The notes under the pieces: model-generated
The model's database searches: none
What the model was told of the DNA's origin: nothing
The model's input: the letters and a program-made list of their open reading frames with translations, nothing else
In this document: positions 3,079 to 37,580 of the stretch, in pieces
How positions within the stretch are numbered: position 1 is the stretch's first letter
How the letters are laid out: the number at the start of each line of letters is the position of its first letter
Program-made: the position numbers and the translations under genes
Origin: a virus
Reading direction: 5' to 3' (one strand)
Virus record (IMG/VR): IMGVR_UViG_3300032236_001613
Span: 124,001-188,000 of that record
Length of the DNA: 64,000 bases

Positions 3079-5268
3079 ATGAGCCACGATTCTGTTCTCA
3101 GCATTGACAATTTTGAACAGCTCTTAAACGAGGATAATTTCTCTAATCTATTATCATCTTTATCTGGAAAAGATAATTTAGAAGCTTCCTTACAAAAATT
3201 ATCCGAACAAAAAAGAAAAGTTGAAATAAAAAAAACAGTTACTATTTCGGTTCCTGTAACAAAAGTAGCTGTTGTTAAGAAAACTAAATCACGAGTATTA
3301 AGAAAAGAGATTACAATTCTTTTAGCAACTGCATTATATGCGACTAGTTGTGTTGATGTTAAAGAACCTAGATTAATTAATCAAATAGAATTTAAAAATA
3401 ATACTCAAGAAGTAACAAATAATGCTGTTTCAAAAGATCTGCCTATTATAACTACTACCATAAAAAAAGAAACAGTTAGCAATAAACTTGCTAGATTCTT
3501 TTTAACTGGAAATATTCAAGAACCTAATAAAGAAAAAGTTAATTTAGAAGCCGAAAGTCCTAGTGTTGATGATGATGACGATGATAGAATTAAACAACCT
3601 GTAGTTGTATTTGATACTAGACCTGCTAGTGAATTGTTAGCAGAAGCTAAAGCACTTTTATTAGAAAAATCAGGAAATTATGATCAAGCTATTGCTAATT
3701 TAAAATCTATCATTTCAACACAACCTGCAGAATCTGCAAAAGAATCTCACGAAATGTTAGGTTATGCTTATGAAAAATCAAAAAACTTTAACAAAGCTAT
3801 GAAAGAATATCAACGTTATCTAGCAATCTATACTGAAGATAACGAAGATAGAACTCGTGTAAGACAACGTTTAATGAGTTTAGAAATTTTGGAACCTGCA
3901 GGATTTTCAATAGGAAAAATCGATAAAACAAAAGCACCGCATCAGGGAGATAGTTTTGAACTTAACGGAAATACATCTGATTATCTATATGTAACAAAAA
4001 ATAATAATGTAGGTGTTGGCCAAAAATCACAACAGATCAATTTAATATCGGGTGTACAAGCTTCTTTAAAAGAAACACACAACGAATATGAGTTATCTGC
4101 CCGTGTACGTTTTTCTCAGGTGAAAGATTTTAGTGAGTCTGCTGGCAACAGAACTAATTTGTCAAATGCTTACGTAGATTTTGCTAATACATTTAAAGGT
4201 TATAACATAAGAGCAGGCAGACAAAACAGTGTAGCCGGGTCAGTAGGAAGATTTGACGGTGTTTCGGGAGGCCTCAAAGTTTCAGATGATTTAAAAATAT
4301 CAGTTGCAGTTGGTAATCCAGTATTAGGCTCTAATTCAAAATCAAAAAGAGTTTTTGAAGGAATGGAAGTTGATTGGAGAATTAATAATGATTGGGGTAC
4401 TGGACTATATGTTAATCGAGGAGTAGCAGATGGGTTACTAGAAAGAATGGCTATAGGCGGTAGTCTAGATTATAGAACAAACCAAACTAGTCTATTATTA
4501 AGATCTGAATATGACACTGTTTATCATAGCTTAAACTTGATTTCTTTTCAAAGCAATTACTATGCAAAAAACTTTGATGCTTTTGCTATTTTTGAAAGAC
4601 GACGTACTCCGATGCCATATGGAGACGTTGCACTTACTTTAGGCGAATACTCTTTAGATCGACAGTATTATAATTCTATCGGTGATCTATTATTAAAATC
4701 AGGGCTAACATCTAATGAAATTTACAATTATATTTCACAATCTACTCCTATTGCTACATCAGCAGTTGTTGGGGTAAGAAAAAAGATTTCTAAAAATTGG
4801 GAAGTAACTGCAGATGCACAGTCAACTAATTTATCTACAATACCAGGTTTTAATTTAAATCCTAATTTTGAACCTATTCCTATACAAGTAGGAGATAAAC
4901 AAAATTATTCATTAACTGCTCATTTAAAAGGAGAAAATATACTATTACCTAATAATAGTATAGAATTTGCTGCCAATGATTCTACCGGTGGTAGGAAATC
5001 TTCATATATTACTTTTGCAGATAATTTTAAATTTGGTGATAAAAATAGAAATAGTATTTCGACTGTATTAAGAATCGATACTGTCAACGAAGATTATGGA
5101 AAAATAGATACATTATCTGCTATTTTAAGAGGGTTTTATTCTATTACCGACCATACAGTTTTAGAAGGACAATATTCACAATCGTTGACAAAGACTAGAT
5201 CATCCTTATATAATAATCCTACTGATAAAAATCAAAATTTTTATATCGGTTTTAGACATGATTTTTAA
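3079..5268 (+). CDS. TPR protein with C-terminal outer-membrane beta-barrel
   Basis: A 729-residue protein behind a clear GGAGG ribosome-binding site. Residues 1-70 are charged. A basic-hydrophobic segment at 70-90 ends in ATSC with Cys91, like a lipoprotein or signal sequence set unusually far inside. An acidic linker (DDDDDD) precedes two TPR-like helical repeats at about 186-265 (NYDQAIANLK, NFNKAMKEYQRYL). From about 275 to the end the chain alternates polar and aromatic residues and finishes in FRHDF; a terminal Phe is typical of BAM-inserted outer-membrane barrels. The layout recalls BcsC/PgaA-type exporters. The next gene, a c-type cytochrome, overlaps its end by 11 nt, so the pair is probably co-translated; an outer-membrane porin-cytochrome complex is a reasonable inference. 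Confidence 0.7.
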   Translation: MSHDSVLSIDNFEQLLNEDNFSNLLSSLSGKDNLEASLQKLSEQKRKVEIKKTVTISVPVTKVAVVKKTKSRVLRKEITILLATALYATSCVDVKEPRLINQIEFKNNTQEVTNNAVSKDLPIITTTIKKETVSNKLARFFLTGNIQEPNKEKVNLEAESPSVDDDDDDRIKQPVVVFDTRPASELLAEAKALLLEKSGNYDQAIANLKSIISTQPAESAKESHEMLGYAYEKSKNFNKAMKEYQRYLAIYTEDNEDRTRVRQRLMSLEILEPAGFSIGKIDKTKAPHQGDSFELNGNTSDYLYVTKNNNVGVGQKSQQINLISGVQASLKETHNEYELSARVRFSQVKDFSESAGNRTNLSNAYVDFANTFKGYNIRAGRQNSVAGSVGRFDGVSGGLKVSDDLKISVAVGNPVLGSNSKSKRVFEGMEVDWRINNDWGTGLYVNRGVADGLLERMAIGGSLDYRTNQTSLLLRSEYDTVYHSLNLISFQSNYYAKNFDAFAIFERRRTPMPYGDVALTLGEYSLDRQYYNSIGDLLLKSGLTSNEIYNYISQSTPIATSAVVGVRKKISKNWEVTADAQSTNLSTIPGFNLNPNFEPIPIQVGDKQNYSLTAHLKGENILLPNNSIEFAANDSTGGRKSSYITFADNFKFGDKNRNSISTVLRIDTVNEDYGKIDTLSAILRGFYSITDHTVLEGQYSQSLTKTRSSLYNNPTDKNQNFYIGFRHDF

Positions 5269-5788
5269 AACATTAGCAGTATTACTACTTTTATTAATTT
5301 TTCCAAAAGCATTAGGAGCCGAATGCACTGCCTATGAAAAATTGCATCCTCGTTGGCCGTTAACTGGTGCGCATTTAAGTACCGGTAAGTGTACTAGTTG
5401 TGGTATGTGTCATATACCCGAAGGTTCGGCAGTTTGGATAGGCACACCTAGAACATGTATTGCCTGTCATAATGGCGACCCTAGCCGTATGACAATAGGT
5501 CGTAGTGCTAGACATCTGCCTACATTATTATTAGATTGTGCAGGATGCCATAATACCATGGCATTTACAAATAAAACAGGTATAACACAGTTAATGATAC
5601 ACACTACAGGCTACCCTACTGTTATGTGTAAAGGGTGCCATAATGGCATGTATACCAGCTATGGCGCACAAGGAATGTCAAACGATCATCCTAAAACGGT
5701 GACTAGGAATGGTGTAAAAATAATAGTAGCTGCTGTTGACTGTAATTATAGTGGTTGCCATAATCCTAACAGTAACTCCTTCAATTAA
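5258..5788 (+). CDS. Multihaem c-type cytochrome, 4-5 haem sites
   Basis: A 176-residue exported protein. The N-terminus MIFKTLAVLLLLLIF..ALGA is a good Sec signal peptide. The mature part has four CXXCH haem-attachment motifs (CGMCH, CIACH, CAGCH, CKGCH) and one CX4CH (CNYSGCH). Haem attachment would rely on the host periplasmic cytochrome c maturation system. The ATG is inside the end of the preceding beta-barrel gene. A related protein with seven motifs follows, and both share the mature start EC-T-YE..HP..PLTG.HLSTGKC. It probably carries electrons in the periplasm or outer membrane; partner and substrate are unknown. Confidence 0.85.
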   Translation: MIFKTLAVLLLLLIFPKALGAECTAYEKLHPRWPLTGAHLSTGKCTSCGMCHIPEGSAVWIGTPRTCIACHNGDPSRMTIGRSARHLPTLLLDCAGCHNTMAFTNKTGITQLMIHTTGYPTVMCKGCHNGMYTSYGAQGMSNDHPKTVTRNGVKIIVAAVDCNYSGCHNPNSNSFN

Positions 5789-5802
5789 GAAAGCAGTTTT
5801 TT

Positions 5803-5810
5803 GCTAAATA
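5803..5810 (+). promoter_or_regulatory. Late promoter box variant
   Basis: GCTAAATA, 29 nt before the GTG start at 5840. Fits the T4-type late box seen across the window but is a weaker match. Confidence 0.4.
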
Positions 5811-5839
5811 GCAGTAGAAACCGCAAGGAGTTTTCTACC

Positions 5840-6649
5840 GTGCAAAAACTAAAAACACTTTTATCGTCTATGGCTATAACGATAGCATTAGCATTATCAT
5901 ATATTGCTGTTCCTGCTACAGTTGCAGCAGGTTCAATGATAATGTTTACTGATACCGCAGATGCTGCTGAATGTACGTTATATGAAACAATTCACCCAAA
6001 TTTTCCATTAACCGGTTCGCACTTGTCAACTGGTAAATGCAGCACTTGTGCTAGCTGTCACGCAGGTGGCATTTATTTAGGCACACCAAAAATCTGTGCT
6101 ACTTGCCATAACGGTAGCCCAACAGGACAAATTTCTGCACAAACTATCGGTCGTTCAGCAAAACATATTCCGATTAATACAACTAACTGCGATTCTTGCC
6201 ATAATACAACGTCATTTACTGCTTCATGGGCTATGAATCATGCTAGTGTAAGTGGGCAAAGATGCGATAGTTGCCATAATGGATCATTTACTGCATATGG
6301 TGCTATGGGTAAACCTAATGATCACATTCCAACGACAGCTGATTGCGGTACTTGCCATGTTACTAAAGATTCAAGCACACACAGTAACGATGCATGGAGT
6401 ATGTCACTTGCTGATATTCACAGAGGTATAACAACCGGTTGTGTTAGCTGTCATGATGGCGCTCACCACCCAGCTCTAGGTAAAATTGATTATGCTCCAG
6501 GGCATCCACAAACAAGCGATGCTTGCGAAACTTGCCACAGTATTAATAACACATTTAAGTGCGCATCATTAATTGAAGATAAAATGCTTCAACGAATGAT
6601 GAAGCAGAGTTTGGCATCTCTTATTGGAATACGTCTTAAATCAATCTAA
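5840..6649 (+). CDS. Multihaem c-type cytochrome, 7 haem sites
   Basis: The GTG at 5840 is chosen because AAGGAG lies 9 nt upstream and translation from it gives a clean signal peptide (hydrophobic core SMAITIALALSYIAV, cleavage probably near TADAAE); an in-frame TTG at 5801 has no such site. The 269-residue product has seven CXXCH motifs (CASCH, CATCH, CDSCH twice, CGTCH, CVSCH, CETCH). Segments such as CATCHNG and HIPT..DC.TCH resemble repeat-rich cytochromes common in betaproteobacteria. The last ~30 residues (after TFKC) are unlike the haem-bearing part, so a recent truncation or replaced tail is possible. A strong terminator follows. With the 5258 gene it forms a paralogous cytochrome pair next to an outer-membrane barrel. 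Confidence 0.85.
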   Translation: MQKLKTLLSSMAITIALALSYIAVPATVAAGSMIMFTDTADAAECTLYETIHPNFPLTGSHLSTGKCSTCASCHAGGIYLGTPKICATCHNGSPTGQISAQTIGRSAKHIPINTTNCDSCHNTTSFTASWAMNHASVSGQRCDSCHNGSFTAYGAMGKPNDHIPTTADCGTCHVTKDSSTHSNDAWSMSLADIHRGITTGCVSCHDGAHHPALGKIDYAPGHPQTSDACETCHSINNTFKCASLIEDKMLQRMMKQSLASLIGIRLKSI

Positions 6650-21109: not shown

Positions 21110-21253
21110 ATGTTTACAGTTATTGTACTTTTAGTTATTGCTGGAGTATTAGTATACGTTGGAACACGTAATAAGGGATCTTCTTCGTCAGGTTCATCAT
21201 CAGGCGGTGCTAGTATGCCTGGTGTTGATAATACTAAAGAAAATAAGAATTAA
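21110..21253 (+). CDS. Small membrane protein, 47 aa
   Basis: ATG preceded by AAAGGAG. One N-terminal hydrophobic helix (FTVIVLLVIAGVLVYVG) then a Ser/Gly-rich, polar tail. Likely inserts in the host inner membrane; lies directly before the tmRNA acceptor piece and may share its transcript. No family recognised. Confidence 0.6.
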   Translation: MFTVIVLLVIAGVLVYVGTRNKGSSSSGSSSGGASMPGVDNTKENKN

Positions 21254-21265
21254 TGGTAGTAAACT

Positions 21266-21317
21266 CTTAAGTAAAGACGGTCTGGACGGGGAGTGCGACC
21301 CTCCCCCACCTCCACCA
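21266..21317 (+). ncRNA. ssrA: tmRNA acceptor (3') piece of a permuted two-piece tmRNA
   Basis: The segment ends in the tRNA-like tail CACCTCC-A-CCA (to 21317). A T-arm is seen as GGGGAG/CTCCCC (21288-21293/21301-21306) around the 7-nt loop TGCGACC. TCTG (21281-21284) can pair with CAGA (21478-21481) of the coding piece to make helix 2, and CACCTCC (21307-21313) pairs with GGGGGTG (21460-21466) to close the acceptor stem with one G-U. The acceptor piece comes before the coding piece, so the gene is circularly permuted. The 5' end is approximate. Confidence 0.85.
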
Positions 21318-21329
21318 TAGGTACATTTG

Positions 21330-21446
21330 ATGCGAAAAATATTTGTAGTTGGGTTTTTAATGTTGTTGGCGGTCTTTGGTATATATAAGATTTTAAAATA
21401 TTCAGCTGACCATCCAACACAATGTAATATGTGGCACAGATGTTAA
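21330..21446 (+). CDS. Possible 38-aa membrane peptide inside tmRNA spacer
   Basis: Open frame of 38 codons lying wholly between the two tmRNA pieces. It encodes a basic start, one hydrophobic helix (IFVVGFLMLLAVFGIYKIL) and a Cys/His-containing tail (CNMWHRC). Only a weak AGGT precedes the ATG. RNase processing of the tmRNA precursor would cut this region out, so it may be translated from the spacer RNA or not at all. Confidence 0.35.
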   Translation: MRKIFVVGFLMLLAVFGIYKILKYSADHPTQCNMWHRC

Positions 21447-21459
21447 GTGTATCTATGTC

Positions 21460-21656
21460 GGGGGTGCGTAGTTTCGACAGAGTGTGTAATAGTCAAAGGG
21501 CTACTGGTGAGATGACTGACCTAATCAGCATAAACAAAAATAAATGCTAATGACAGTGTTTATGATGTTGCTATCGCTGCTTAATTGCAGTCTAGTAAAC
21601 AGAGTTTGATCACTCGGTAACAGAACGGTCAGATAAAGGAGCTTCGGCTCCTTTAT
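21460..21656 (+). ncRNA. ssrA: tmRNA coding (5') piece; tag ANDSVYDVAIAA
   Basis: Starts GGGGGTGCGTAGTTTCGACAG, the conserved tmRNA 5' end with D-loop. The resume codon GCT is at 21546, and the frame reads A-N-D-S-V-Y-D-V-A-I-A-A then TAA (21582-21584). The tag begins with the proteobacterial AND and ends in AIAA where ALAA is usual. It is followed by structured RNA and a 10-bp terminator hairpin. Paired with the acceptor piece upstream it forms a trans-translation RNA that rescues stalled ribosomes and marks the unfinished protein for ClpXP. The window also encodes ClpX. Confidence 0.92.
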
Positions 21657-21661
21657 TTTTT
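21633..21661 (+). terminator. Rho-independent terminator of the tmRNA
   Basis: 10-bp stem ATAAAGGAGC/GCTCCTTTAT with TTCG tetraloop and a T-run. Confidence 0.92.
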
Positions 21662-35717: not shown

Positions 35718-36137
35718 TTACTTAAACCATCCTATCTTTTCGCCAGCGGCTTTACGTCGCTGGTATTCTTCTAAGCTTCCGGGATAACGTGTAGCCCAAA
35801 TCATCCAAAAGGCCATAAATGCACTTACACCTAGTGTTAATTTCCAATTATGAGTAGTTAACCAAATAGTTACAACACTAGCATCCATGCATAAGAACAT
35901 AACCCATTTAATCTTAGTGGGGTAAACTCTGTTATTACTCCAATTTTTAATAAAAGGTCCAAATAACCTATGGTTAAGCATATAGTTATGGAACTTTTCC
36001 GAACTCTTACTAAAGCACCATGCTGCTAAAATACTAGGAGTGCTCCATGGCAATCCAGGAACAAATGTTCCTAAGTAAGCAACACCTAAAAATAGTATAC
36101 CTAAGGTAAACCAAAGAGCTTTTTTAATTTTATTCAT
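35718..36137 (-). CDS. DUF454 inner-membrane protein (YbaN-like)
   Basis: 139 residues. Hydrophobic segments (ALWFTLGILFLGVAYLGTFVPGLPWSTPSILAAWCFSKS, then VMFLCMDASVVTIWL and VSAFMAFWMIWATRYP) and the conserved PGLPxTPF-like PGLPWSTP and SxxFHxYML residues match DUF454/YbaN. Function of the family is not established. Convergent with the epimerase gene, with only 5 nt between them. Confidence 0.85.
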   Translation of the reverse strand: MNKIKKALWFTLGILFLGVAYLGTFVPGLPWSTPSILAAWCFSKSSEKFHNYMLNHRLFGPFIKNWSNNRVYPTKIKWVMFLCMDASVVTIWLTTHNWKLTLGVSAFMAFWMIWATRYPGSLEEYQRRKAAGEKIGWFK

Positions 36138-36155
36138 TTTTTTTCTCGTTTGAAA

Positions 36156-36165: not shown

Positions 36166-36195
36166 TTGACTTTACCCCACGTTATATTTTATAGT
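36166..36195 (+). promoter_or_regulatory. Sigma70 promoter of the large ncRNA
   Basis: TTGACT, 18-nt spacer, TATAGT. Points into a 560-nt non-coding stretch; predicted start about 36202. Confidence 0.7.
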
Positions 36196-36201
36196 ATATC
36201 A

Positions 36202-36717
36202 ACTAAGGCACACTCACTGGCATAAACATAGGCACATCAATCAACGCTTAAGCTCGCACCGGCTAATTTCGGGTGCCTATGATAACCGGACAACAAAGTC
36301 GCGGGGACAGAAATCCTGTGTGTTGACAGGAACTCAGCCACTACCCCTTCAGGGATGATGATGGAATATGCCTATATAATCCGTTTGGCTAAGATAAAAA
36401 TACTAAGGCTCTTTTGATCGCGGCTCTGTGAAAAAGATACAACCGCAAATACTACATATCTGCTAACATCGGTGTGTAGCGTTCCCGTTAGATTGAAGTT
36501 AGGAATAAGAAGTACAGGCTAACCGCTTCTGCGCAGCAATGCAATTTCCGAATGTTAGTGACCAACGAACTCAGGTAATAATCGTTAGAAAATCTTCGCC
36601 CTGTTTTGGGCGAAGTATGACATTAAAATCTAGGTAATCAATTCACTCTTAATAATTTTTCTCTTTCTTATAAAAGGTGATGAGCGCGAGCGAAATCACG
36701 GGCGAATCCTTTCGCCC
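36202..36717 (+). ncRNA. Large structured non-coding RNA candidate
   Basis: About 515 nt with no coding frame of note, GC-richer than the intergenic background, and a sigma70 promoter at its 5' end. Helices visible by eye: CATAGGCAC/GTGCCTATG (36227-36235/36273-36281); CCTGT/ACAGG near 36315; a long-range helix CTAACAT+CGG/CCG+ATGTTAG (36463-36472/36548-36558, one bulged A); AGAAG/CTTCT near 36508; CTTCGCCC/GGGCGAAG (36594-36615); GGGCGAA/TTCGCCC (36700-36717). Size and phage setting recall ornate phage RNAs (GOLLD, ROOL), but I cannot match it to a class. The 3' end could be either late hairpin. Confidence 0.7.
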
Positions 36718-36726
36718 CTTAAATAA

Positions 36727-36755
36727 TTGACACTAATGGTAATTCCAATTATAAT
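36727..36755 (+). promoter_or_regulatory. Consensus sigma70 promoter, leaderless arrangement
   Basis: TTGACA, 17-nt spacer, TATAAT. The predicted start is position 36762, the A of the following ATG. Confidence 0.85.
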
Positions 36756-36761
36756 TACGTT

Positions 36762-37580
36762 ATGAAAATCAACATTGTCAGCGATCTACATTTAGATGTT
36801 AGCGGGTATCAAGAATTACCTGGCGGAGAAGTATTAATACTCAGCGGAGATATCGCCGAAGTACGTAATATTCACAAACACTTTCACAGCACTAAGCTTT
36901 TATCTGATGTACCTAATCATACATACGCATGTTCGGAATTCTTCCATTACGAATGTGCTAAGTACGATCGTGTGTTCTATGTAATGGGCAATCATGAGCA
37001 CTACAGAAGTACCTATCAGAATACTCGTAGAGATCTTGAGTATATGATGCCTAAAAATCTAACCATTTTAGAAAATGATGTAGTAGATTATAATGGCGTT
37101 ATGTTTATGGGTGCTACGTTATGGACTGATTTAAATCGTGGAGATCCGTTAACAGAATATCATGTTAAACAATGTATGAACGATTATCATAAGATTACTC
37201 AAAAAGGTGATGTGTACGATATGTATCATAAACTTAAACCTTCTTTTACTATGTCAGAGCATAGGCGTAGTTTAGAGTATTTTAAGATTGTGCTCGAACA
37301 GAACAAGGATCGTAAGTTTGTTATTGTAACGCATCATGCACCTAGCTTTGAAAGTGTTGACGATTATTACAAAAATGATACTCTAATGAATGGCGGATAT
37401 ATGAGTCGTTTAGAAGAGTTTATCTTAGATCGCCCTAACATCTCTATGTGGGTGCACGGGCATATGCATAACAAATCCGATTATCTAATTGGGGATACTC
37501 GTGTAGTATGCAATCCTAGAGGCTATTTGCCATACGAAAACGAAAATGGATTCGATCCAGGATTTACGGTAGAGTTATAA
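36762..37580 (+). CDS. Calcineurin-like metallophosphoesterase
   Basis: 272 residues with the five metal motifs: SDLHLD (near 6), SGDIAE (near 28), GNHEHY (near 74), THHAPS (near 191) and HGHMHNKSD (near 224). Substrate is unknown; relatives in phages hydrolyse nucleotides or nucleic-acid ends. The ATG is at the predicted transcription start of a strong host-type promoter and there is no Shine-Dalgarno site, so it is expected as an early leaderless message. Confidence 0.88.
   Translation: MKINIVSDLHLDVSGYQELPGGEVLILSGDIAEVRNIHKHFHSTKLLSDVPNHTYACSEFFHYECAKYDRVFYVMGNHEHYRSTYQNTRRDLEYMMPKNLTILENDVVDYNGVMFMGATLWTDLNRGDPLTEYHVKQCMNDYHKITQKGDVYDMYHKLKPSFTMSEHRRSLEYFKIVLEQNKDRKFVIVTHHAPSFESVDDYYKNDTLMNGGYMSRLEEFILDRPNISMWVHGHMHNKSDYLIGDTRVVCNPRGYLPYENENGFDPGFTVEL

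Follow-up and report, generated by a model that had tools for sequence, protein, structure and literature searches.

The Locus and Its Predicted Transcript

What does a virus keep in a stretch of its genome that holds no gene, and what could the product do? The 64 kb of DNA analyzed here (the window) are part of a 328-kb virus record, and no ORF of at least 40 amino acids was found between positions 36138 and 36761, in agreement with the long gene-free stretch of the original prediction. By family assignment, the flanks are a DUF454 gene on the reverse strand (35718–36137) and a phosphoesterase gene starting at 36762. A promoter scan placed a sigma-70-like promoter, TTGACT-18-TATAGT, at 36166–36195 on the plus strand, where a host-type promoter had been proposed. 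The promoter and the 5′ end are conserved in L007, L013, and L006, three relatives with the gene context of the window to the limit of their contigs, and the 3′ hairpins are conserved in L007 and L013. The whole RNA, ∼520 nt long, would extend on the plus strand from 36202 to 36720, that is, from the predicted start to just past the last hairpin, both ends being predictions.

The last hairpin, GGGCGAA/TTCGCCC (36700–36717, plus strand), has a terminator-like position; it is followed by CTTAAATAATT, and as a strong T run is absent, the terminator scan did not call it. Its arm sequence recurs in a hairpin at 36594–36615, and the pair of closing hairpins with common arms is thus as first described. 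The folding energy of 36202–36722 is −141.7 kcal/mol (z −2.89), a value equaled by none of 100 shuffles. Taken alone, this is only moderate evidence, and the decisive support for the structured RNA predicted at 36202–36717, which stands alone with its own promoter and closing hairpin, is comparative and comes from covariation. The motif ATAGGCA at 36228 has TGCCTAT partners at both 36274 and 36369, as noticed earlier, and alternate folds of the window sequence are possible; the proximal partner overlaps a covarying helix (36256–36260/36272–36276), and the distal one was traced by eye, in some relatives only. No particular helix could be matched to the predicted 10-bp long-range pair with one bulge.

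Downstream of the RNA, a perfect TTGACA-17-TATAAT promoter at 36727–36755 lies 6 nt ahead of the phosphoesterase ATG, a placement that suggests a near-leaderless phosphoesterase transcript. Elsewhere, the window carries a phage-borne permuted tmRNA at 21211–21658 on the plus strand (tmRNA_permuted RF04321, 120 bits; beta_tmRNA RF01850, 89 bits), which has a long insert between its two pieces and was missed by ARAGORN, and, at 5258–6649, two adjacent ORFs rich in CxxCH motifs encoding multiheme-cytochrome-like proteins.

Relationship to RF01718

The original prediction recognized no class for the RNA, saw a fit to the GOLLD/ROOL type, and proposed a search with all Rfam models. That search (Rfam 15) gave no match of the window RNA to GOLLD, ROOL, OLE, raiA, or any intron family, so that the likeness to GOLLD and ROOL holds for the setting but not for membership. 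A class was nevertheless found: the 5′ third (36251–36391, plus strand) matched the complete model (positions 1–141) of RF01718, Polynucleobacter-1, with 91.2 bits (E 3.4e-18), and with a curated cut-off of 37 bits, this makes the window RNA a member of that family. The 2010 survey reported Polynucleobacter-1 from Burkholderiales and from fresh water and estuary, and its entry, with cis-reg "y" and switch "?", marks it as a probable cis-regulator (Weinberg et al. 2010, PMC2864571).

The window RNA shares sequence and structure with RF01718 as described in the 5′ 141 nt, but this motif of 141 nt covers only its 5′ third; here, the RNA is ∼500–600 nt long and has, in addition, a 3′ domain that is followed by a 3′ hairpin, as well as three more pairings of the pseudoknot type. 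The predicted RNA is thus a known family in part and, beyond its first third, previously undescribed. The same phage carries a second copy (record positions 299833–299969, L003 3834–3970; RF01718, 87.5 bits), located directly 3′ of segE, where no promoter for the RNA itself is apparent, and the two copies align well past the Rfam ends, up to the last hairpins. The RF01718 scores of the phage and cell copies scored range from 79 to 106 bits.

Covariation and Pseudoknots

Relatives were collected by pattern scans of viral and genomic collections, followed by nhmmer, and come from both phages and cells. The genome pattern scan gave 95 matches, mostly due to chance, and nhmmer drew a clear line, with E ≤ 1e-22 for true matches and E ≥ 0.0038 for all others. 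The covariation in homologous phages that had been proposed as a check is present: in the phage alignment A2 (15 sequences, 70 pairs), the covariation score was 0.538 in comparison with 0.225 in shuffled data (0 of 500 as high) and 0.07–0.11 when the structure was slid. Standard pairs made up 89.9% versus 72.9% after shuffling, and 45 of the 70 pairs showed changes on both sides. For the cell alignment A4 (14 sequences, 88 pairs), 94.0% were paired versus 86.4%, and the score was 0.246 versus 0.107 (0 of 500). As the structures were drawn by eye on the same, related sequences, these numbers lean upward; the conclusion of a conserved fold over the full length is safe nonetheless, because the effect is large and the phage and cell groups agree.

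Three pseudoknot-type pairings, PK1, PK2, and PK3, are absent from the Rfam structure. The 5′ strand of PK1 (TCAACGC, 36241–36247, plus strand) lies outside that structure and pairs with a hairpin loop, GTGTTGA at 36320–36326, within the RF01718 part; in the cell alignment, it is 100% paired with 3 compensated pairs. For PK2, the strand CTAACA (36463–36468, plus strand), in the loop of the hairpin 36453–36478, pairs with 36553–36558, ∼85 nt downstream, and for PK3, GTTAG (36487–36491, plus strand) pairs with 36519–36523 in the loop of the hairpin 36509–36529. Both are paired in every phage sequence (100%, PK2 in all 15) across several different sequence types, with compensation in three of six and three of five pairs, respectively; the types of PK3 are GUCAU/AUGAC, GUCAG/CUGAC, GUUGU/ACAAC, GUCGU/ACGAC, and GUUAG/CUAAC. 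A swap test of PK1 and PK2 in wide windows, in which a sequence's own pairs did slightly better for PK1 and not for PK2, is too noisy for helices of 5–7 bp, and column-wise counts were used instead.

The 3′ Domain and the Twin Repeats

For the region outside RF01718, a covariance model of 156 positions was built from cellular sequences only. It matched the window at 36483–36640 (plus strand) with 24.4 bits (E 0.0056 in 255 kb), a score that is modest alone and that appears convincing through its position, since the match is placed exactly 3′ of the RF01718 match. The same model found the phages L005, L015, and L016 at ∼1e-6 and the divergent cellular relatives L191, L182, and L185 at 1e-9 to 1e-4. 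Of 299 genomes, 10 were matched, 6 of them lacking an RF01718 match, and by these matches, RF01718 covers only part of the real family. The divergent relatives (L182 2276–2482, L185 764–1003, and L191 2289–2517), which have no RF01718 match and are transcribed divergently from DUF6641, carry concerted repeats of their own (CCTCAGTAAAGAT and TTCCTAGTAAAGAT in L182).

Read from the alignments, the 3′ domain contains a direct repeat, with copy 1 (AACTCAGGTAATAA) at 36568–36581 and copy 2 (AATCTAGGTAATC) at 36627–36639, both on the plus strand. Between them stands the hairpin CTTCGCC/GGCGAAG (36594–36615, plus strand), which covaries in A2 with 96% of the cells paired. The twin repeats change in concert across the relatives, reading AACTCAGGTAAT/AATCTAGGTAAT in the window and AGATAAT, GCATAAT, AGATGAAG, AGCGAAAG, AACAAAAG, or ATCGAAAG elsewhere, and because they change together, a single partner reading both is suggested. 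Farther downstream is the 3′ hairpin GTGAT-GA-GC-GCGA-GC-GAA-ATCAC (36677–36699, plus strand; A2: 93% paired, four of five pairs compensated). Its module GA-GC-loop-GC-GAA is kept in all groups while the outer stem varies, and the loop pattern, found in 30 loci, occurs a single time in the window.

Phage Copies and the segE Gene

Among the carriers of the RNA are uncultured phages with replication genes of the T4 type, the phage records being metagenomic fragments. In phages, the RNA nearly always follows directly after segE (GIY-YIG, PF19835), starting from its stop codon, and the pair lies downstream of homologues of genes 46/47 (phrog_77 and phrog_100). Copies of the window type are instead flanked by the genes for DUF454 and the phosphoesterase. 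In the tree, which has long branches and should be read with care, they form one clade within the segE group (100/100), with weak support (83/59) for a place beside the copies that follow segE in the same lineage of phages; this position is what one would expect from a duplication. All cell RNAs fall into one clade (98/98), which joins the phage group L005/L015/L016 (100/100).

The attachment to segE could mean that the RNA is a small RNA derived from the segE 3′ UTR and later duplicated, a riboregulator that base-pairs via the twin repeats. In most phages, the RNA indeed starts right at the segE stop codon and shows no separate promoter, and repeats that change together are expected if both recognize one partner. 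The copies in cells and in the window are preceded by promoters of their own, however, and the extensive fold exceeds the needs of a simple pairing RNA, so that we regard this origin as unlikely, if worth keeping in view. The GIY-YIG family of the abutting gene also brings to mind a self-splicing or homing element, similar to a group I or II intron, that is moved by that gene. This is hardly credible: the Rfam intron families were unmatched, neither copy splits a gene, and in a phage-record collection with segE homologues in 222 records, the RNA found no match (BLASTN) and the annotated neighborhoods inspected leave no gap of 500 nt after segE.

Cellular Elements with DUF6641

Full-length relatives of the RNA were found in integrated elements of Polynucleobacter/Limnohabitans-type bacteria; Limnohabitans sp. 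Bal53 and P. rarus MT-CBb6A5 are among the strains with the element. RF01718 is rare and patchy there, with scores above the cut-off in 7 of the 398 family genomes searched. Some of these genomes bear MAG labels as titles, and misbinning is possible for them (L042 has the title Nitrospira). In all 10 genomes with the 3′ domain, the RNA is divergent from DUF6641. A small protein and DUF6641 are encoded on one strand, and the RNA lies on the opposite strand, followed by variable cargo and, beyond it, a short tyrosine integrase, two conserved genes of unknown function, and an AAA+ protein that most resembles T4-type clamp loaders of phages (phrog_168); a longer integrase-like protein is often found at the element edge. 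These genes were inspected near the RNA, in fetched stretches of up to 20 kb. At L148, L152, and L157, a stretch just 3′ of the RNA and ahead of the short integrase (GGGTATAGGTAGAAAATCA...) appears conserved by eye and has no Rfam match, possibly being an attachment site or a further RNA. At L053, L054, and L118, in Limnohabitans-type genomes, the RNA is cut off after its 5′ part by other sequence, and these appear to be decaying copies.

DUF6641 (PF20346) is present in 40 of 398 Burkholderiaceae genomes, in up to four or five copies per genome (loci L167–L199). Since most DUF6641 elements are without the RNA and have ORFs in the same slot, the RNA is an optional cargo of these elements. Packaging of the element is unsupported, as DUF6641 is absent from the six RNA-bearing phages (fragments) and nearly so from IMG/VR, which gave a single distant match; the phage collection gave none. 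A model of the protein (pLDDT 76) had no PDB or viral match at E ≤ 0.001.

The downstream genes bear on the listing of Polynucleobacter-1 as cis-reg "y" (PMC2864571), and thus on the RNA as a riboswitch-like leader of the next gene. The window copy does lie upstream of a gene on the same strand, but that gene has its own perfect promoter (36727–36755), with the last hairpin separating the two. The ORFs after the cellular RNA differ in family and are often on the opposite strand (L150, L151, and L153), and in several phages (L160 and L161), the RNA is followed by a gene on the reverse strand. Because the downstream genes vary in family and direction, the RNA goes with no single gene, and a conserved same-strand downstream gene, the mark of a riboswitch, is not seen across the loci compared; a cis-acting leader is very unlikely.

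A Putative Late Promoter Box Ahead of the RNA

T4-type late promoters have the motif TATAAATA, and the enrichment of TAAATA in the phage is as expected for such promoters: it is the top hexamer upstream of the phage ORFs of the window (16 of 68 vs. 1.3 expected), and ATAAATA was found upstream of 10, in comparison with 0.31 expected. The same TAAATA box stands just ahead of the RNA in 12 of 12 elements and at the same divergent place in 30 of 32 DUF6641 loci (4.7 expected). The flanking host genes show no enrichment (3 of 87 vs. 4.4 expected). What lies behind the box is this RNA, divergent relatives of it, ORFs, or a short ORF with another structured-looking RNA. The latter is seen at L172, L178, and L188, where a conserved structured-looking stretch of ∼330 nt (ACGCGGGTTGTAATACGTCGGCTAATGACCCCGC...) follows the short ORF; it has no Rfam match and ends in the same 3′ hairpin and last hairpin. 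At eight further loci (L173, L175, L176, L181, L183, L186, L189, and L194), the box is followed by a leader of ∼200–250 nt in which GAGTTGC/GCAAC repeats abound, and then by an ORF of ∼140 codons or more. The window copy has the host-type promoter and no TAAATA box, and the phage and element copies may therefore be timed differently.

The locus could also function at the DNA level, as a replication origin or packaging signal common to phage and satellite, the transcript being a primer or by-product. Helper origins or packaging sites are a common feature of satellites, the element has replication-type genes, and in the phages, the RNA adjoins the recombination genes 46/47. The compensatory pairing over 500 nt, pseudoknots included, and boundaries that coincide with the promoter and the last hairpin argue for selection on the folded strand, however, and a GC-skew turn is absent at 36 kb and the genome has two copies. 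We consider an origin or packaging signal decidedly unlikely.

Possible Role in Infection

With a little less than even confidence, we favor a ∼500-nt stand-alone, trans-acting structured RNA of infection, which may act as a scaffold via its twin repeats, the cellular elements being satellites with a phage-type late promoter. The phage RNA would be made in infection and serve the lytic cycle, copy 1 being expressed from the host-type promoter and copy 2 by read-through from segE. Once folded, it would present two equal binding sites to one phage or host factor. The cellular elements would be satellites of such T4-like phages, and a satellite-like element using phage late transcription seems to us the simplest reading; the element copy would then be made late, from the TAAATA promoter, and its RNA would either recruit that factor to the phage or compete for it and divert it.

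A bolder reading, possible though rather unlikely, makes the structured RNA the point of contact between phage and satellite. The place behind the helper-type late promoter would be an exchangeable "RNA slot," and its contents would exploit or block the factor served by the phage RNA. The fillings seen are this RNA, a divergent relative, and a short ORF with an unrelated-looking RNA, several of which share the 3′ hairpin.

An orphan Rfam entry of 141 nt becomes part of a full-length RNA of three to four times that length, whose secondary structure is available in outline, and Polynucleobacter-1, listed as a probable cis-regulator, would now be seen as a stand-alone RNA carried by phages and mobile elements.

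Comparison with Known Systems

Phage satellites of the P4, PICI, and PLE types are well known, and the cellular element resembles them in carrying integrases and genes of the replication type, in its variable cargo, and in its putative phage-type promoters. It differs from them in that its helper, induction, and packaging are hypothetical. In the literature searched, we found no satellite of T4-like phages in Polynucleobacter and no report of the element.

Among RNAs, GOLLD is large and pseudoknotted, is found in phages, and rises in level during phage lysis, and ROOL is a large multi-pseudoknot RNA of phages and prophages with no known partner; the two are examples of large phage RNAs that can reach high abundance and assemble from RNA only (PMC12286853). 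The window RNA is similar to GOLLD in being large, pseudoknotted, and of phages, but has no Rfam match to it and differs in size and layout, and the window has no tRNA gene. As with ROOL, it is large, phage-borne, and has multiple pseudoknots, but it lacks an Rfam match and occurs in another context. With its proposed links to lytic infection and a late promoter, and with its twin repeats, it offers a concrete setting for testing the function of an RNA of GOLLD/ROOL size, and we infer that it is similar to GOLLD and ROOL in setting and unrelated to them in sequence.
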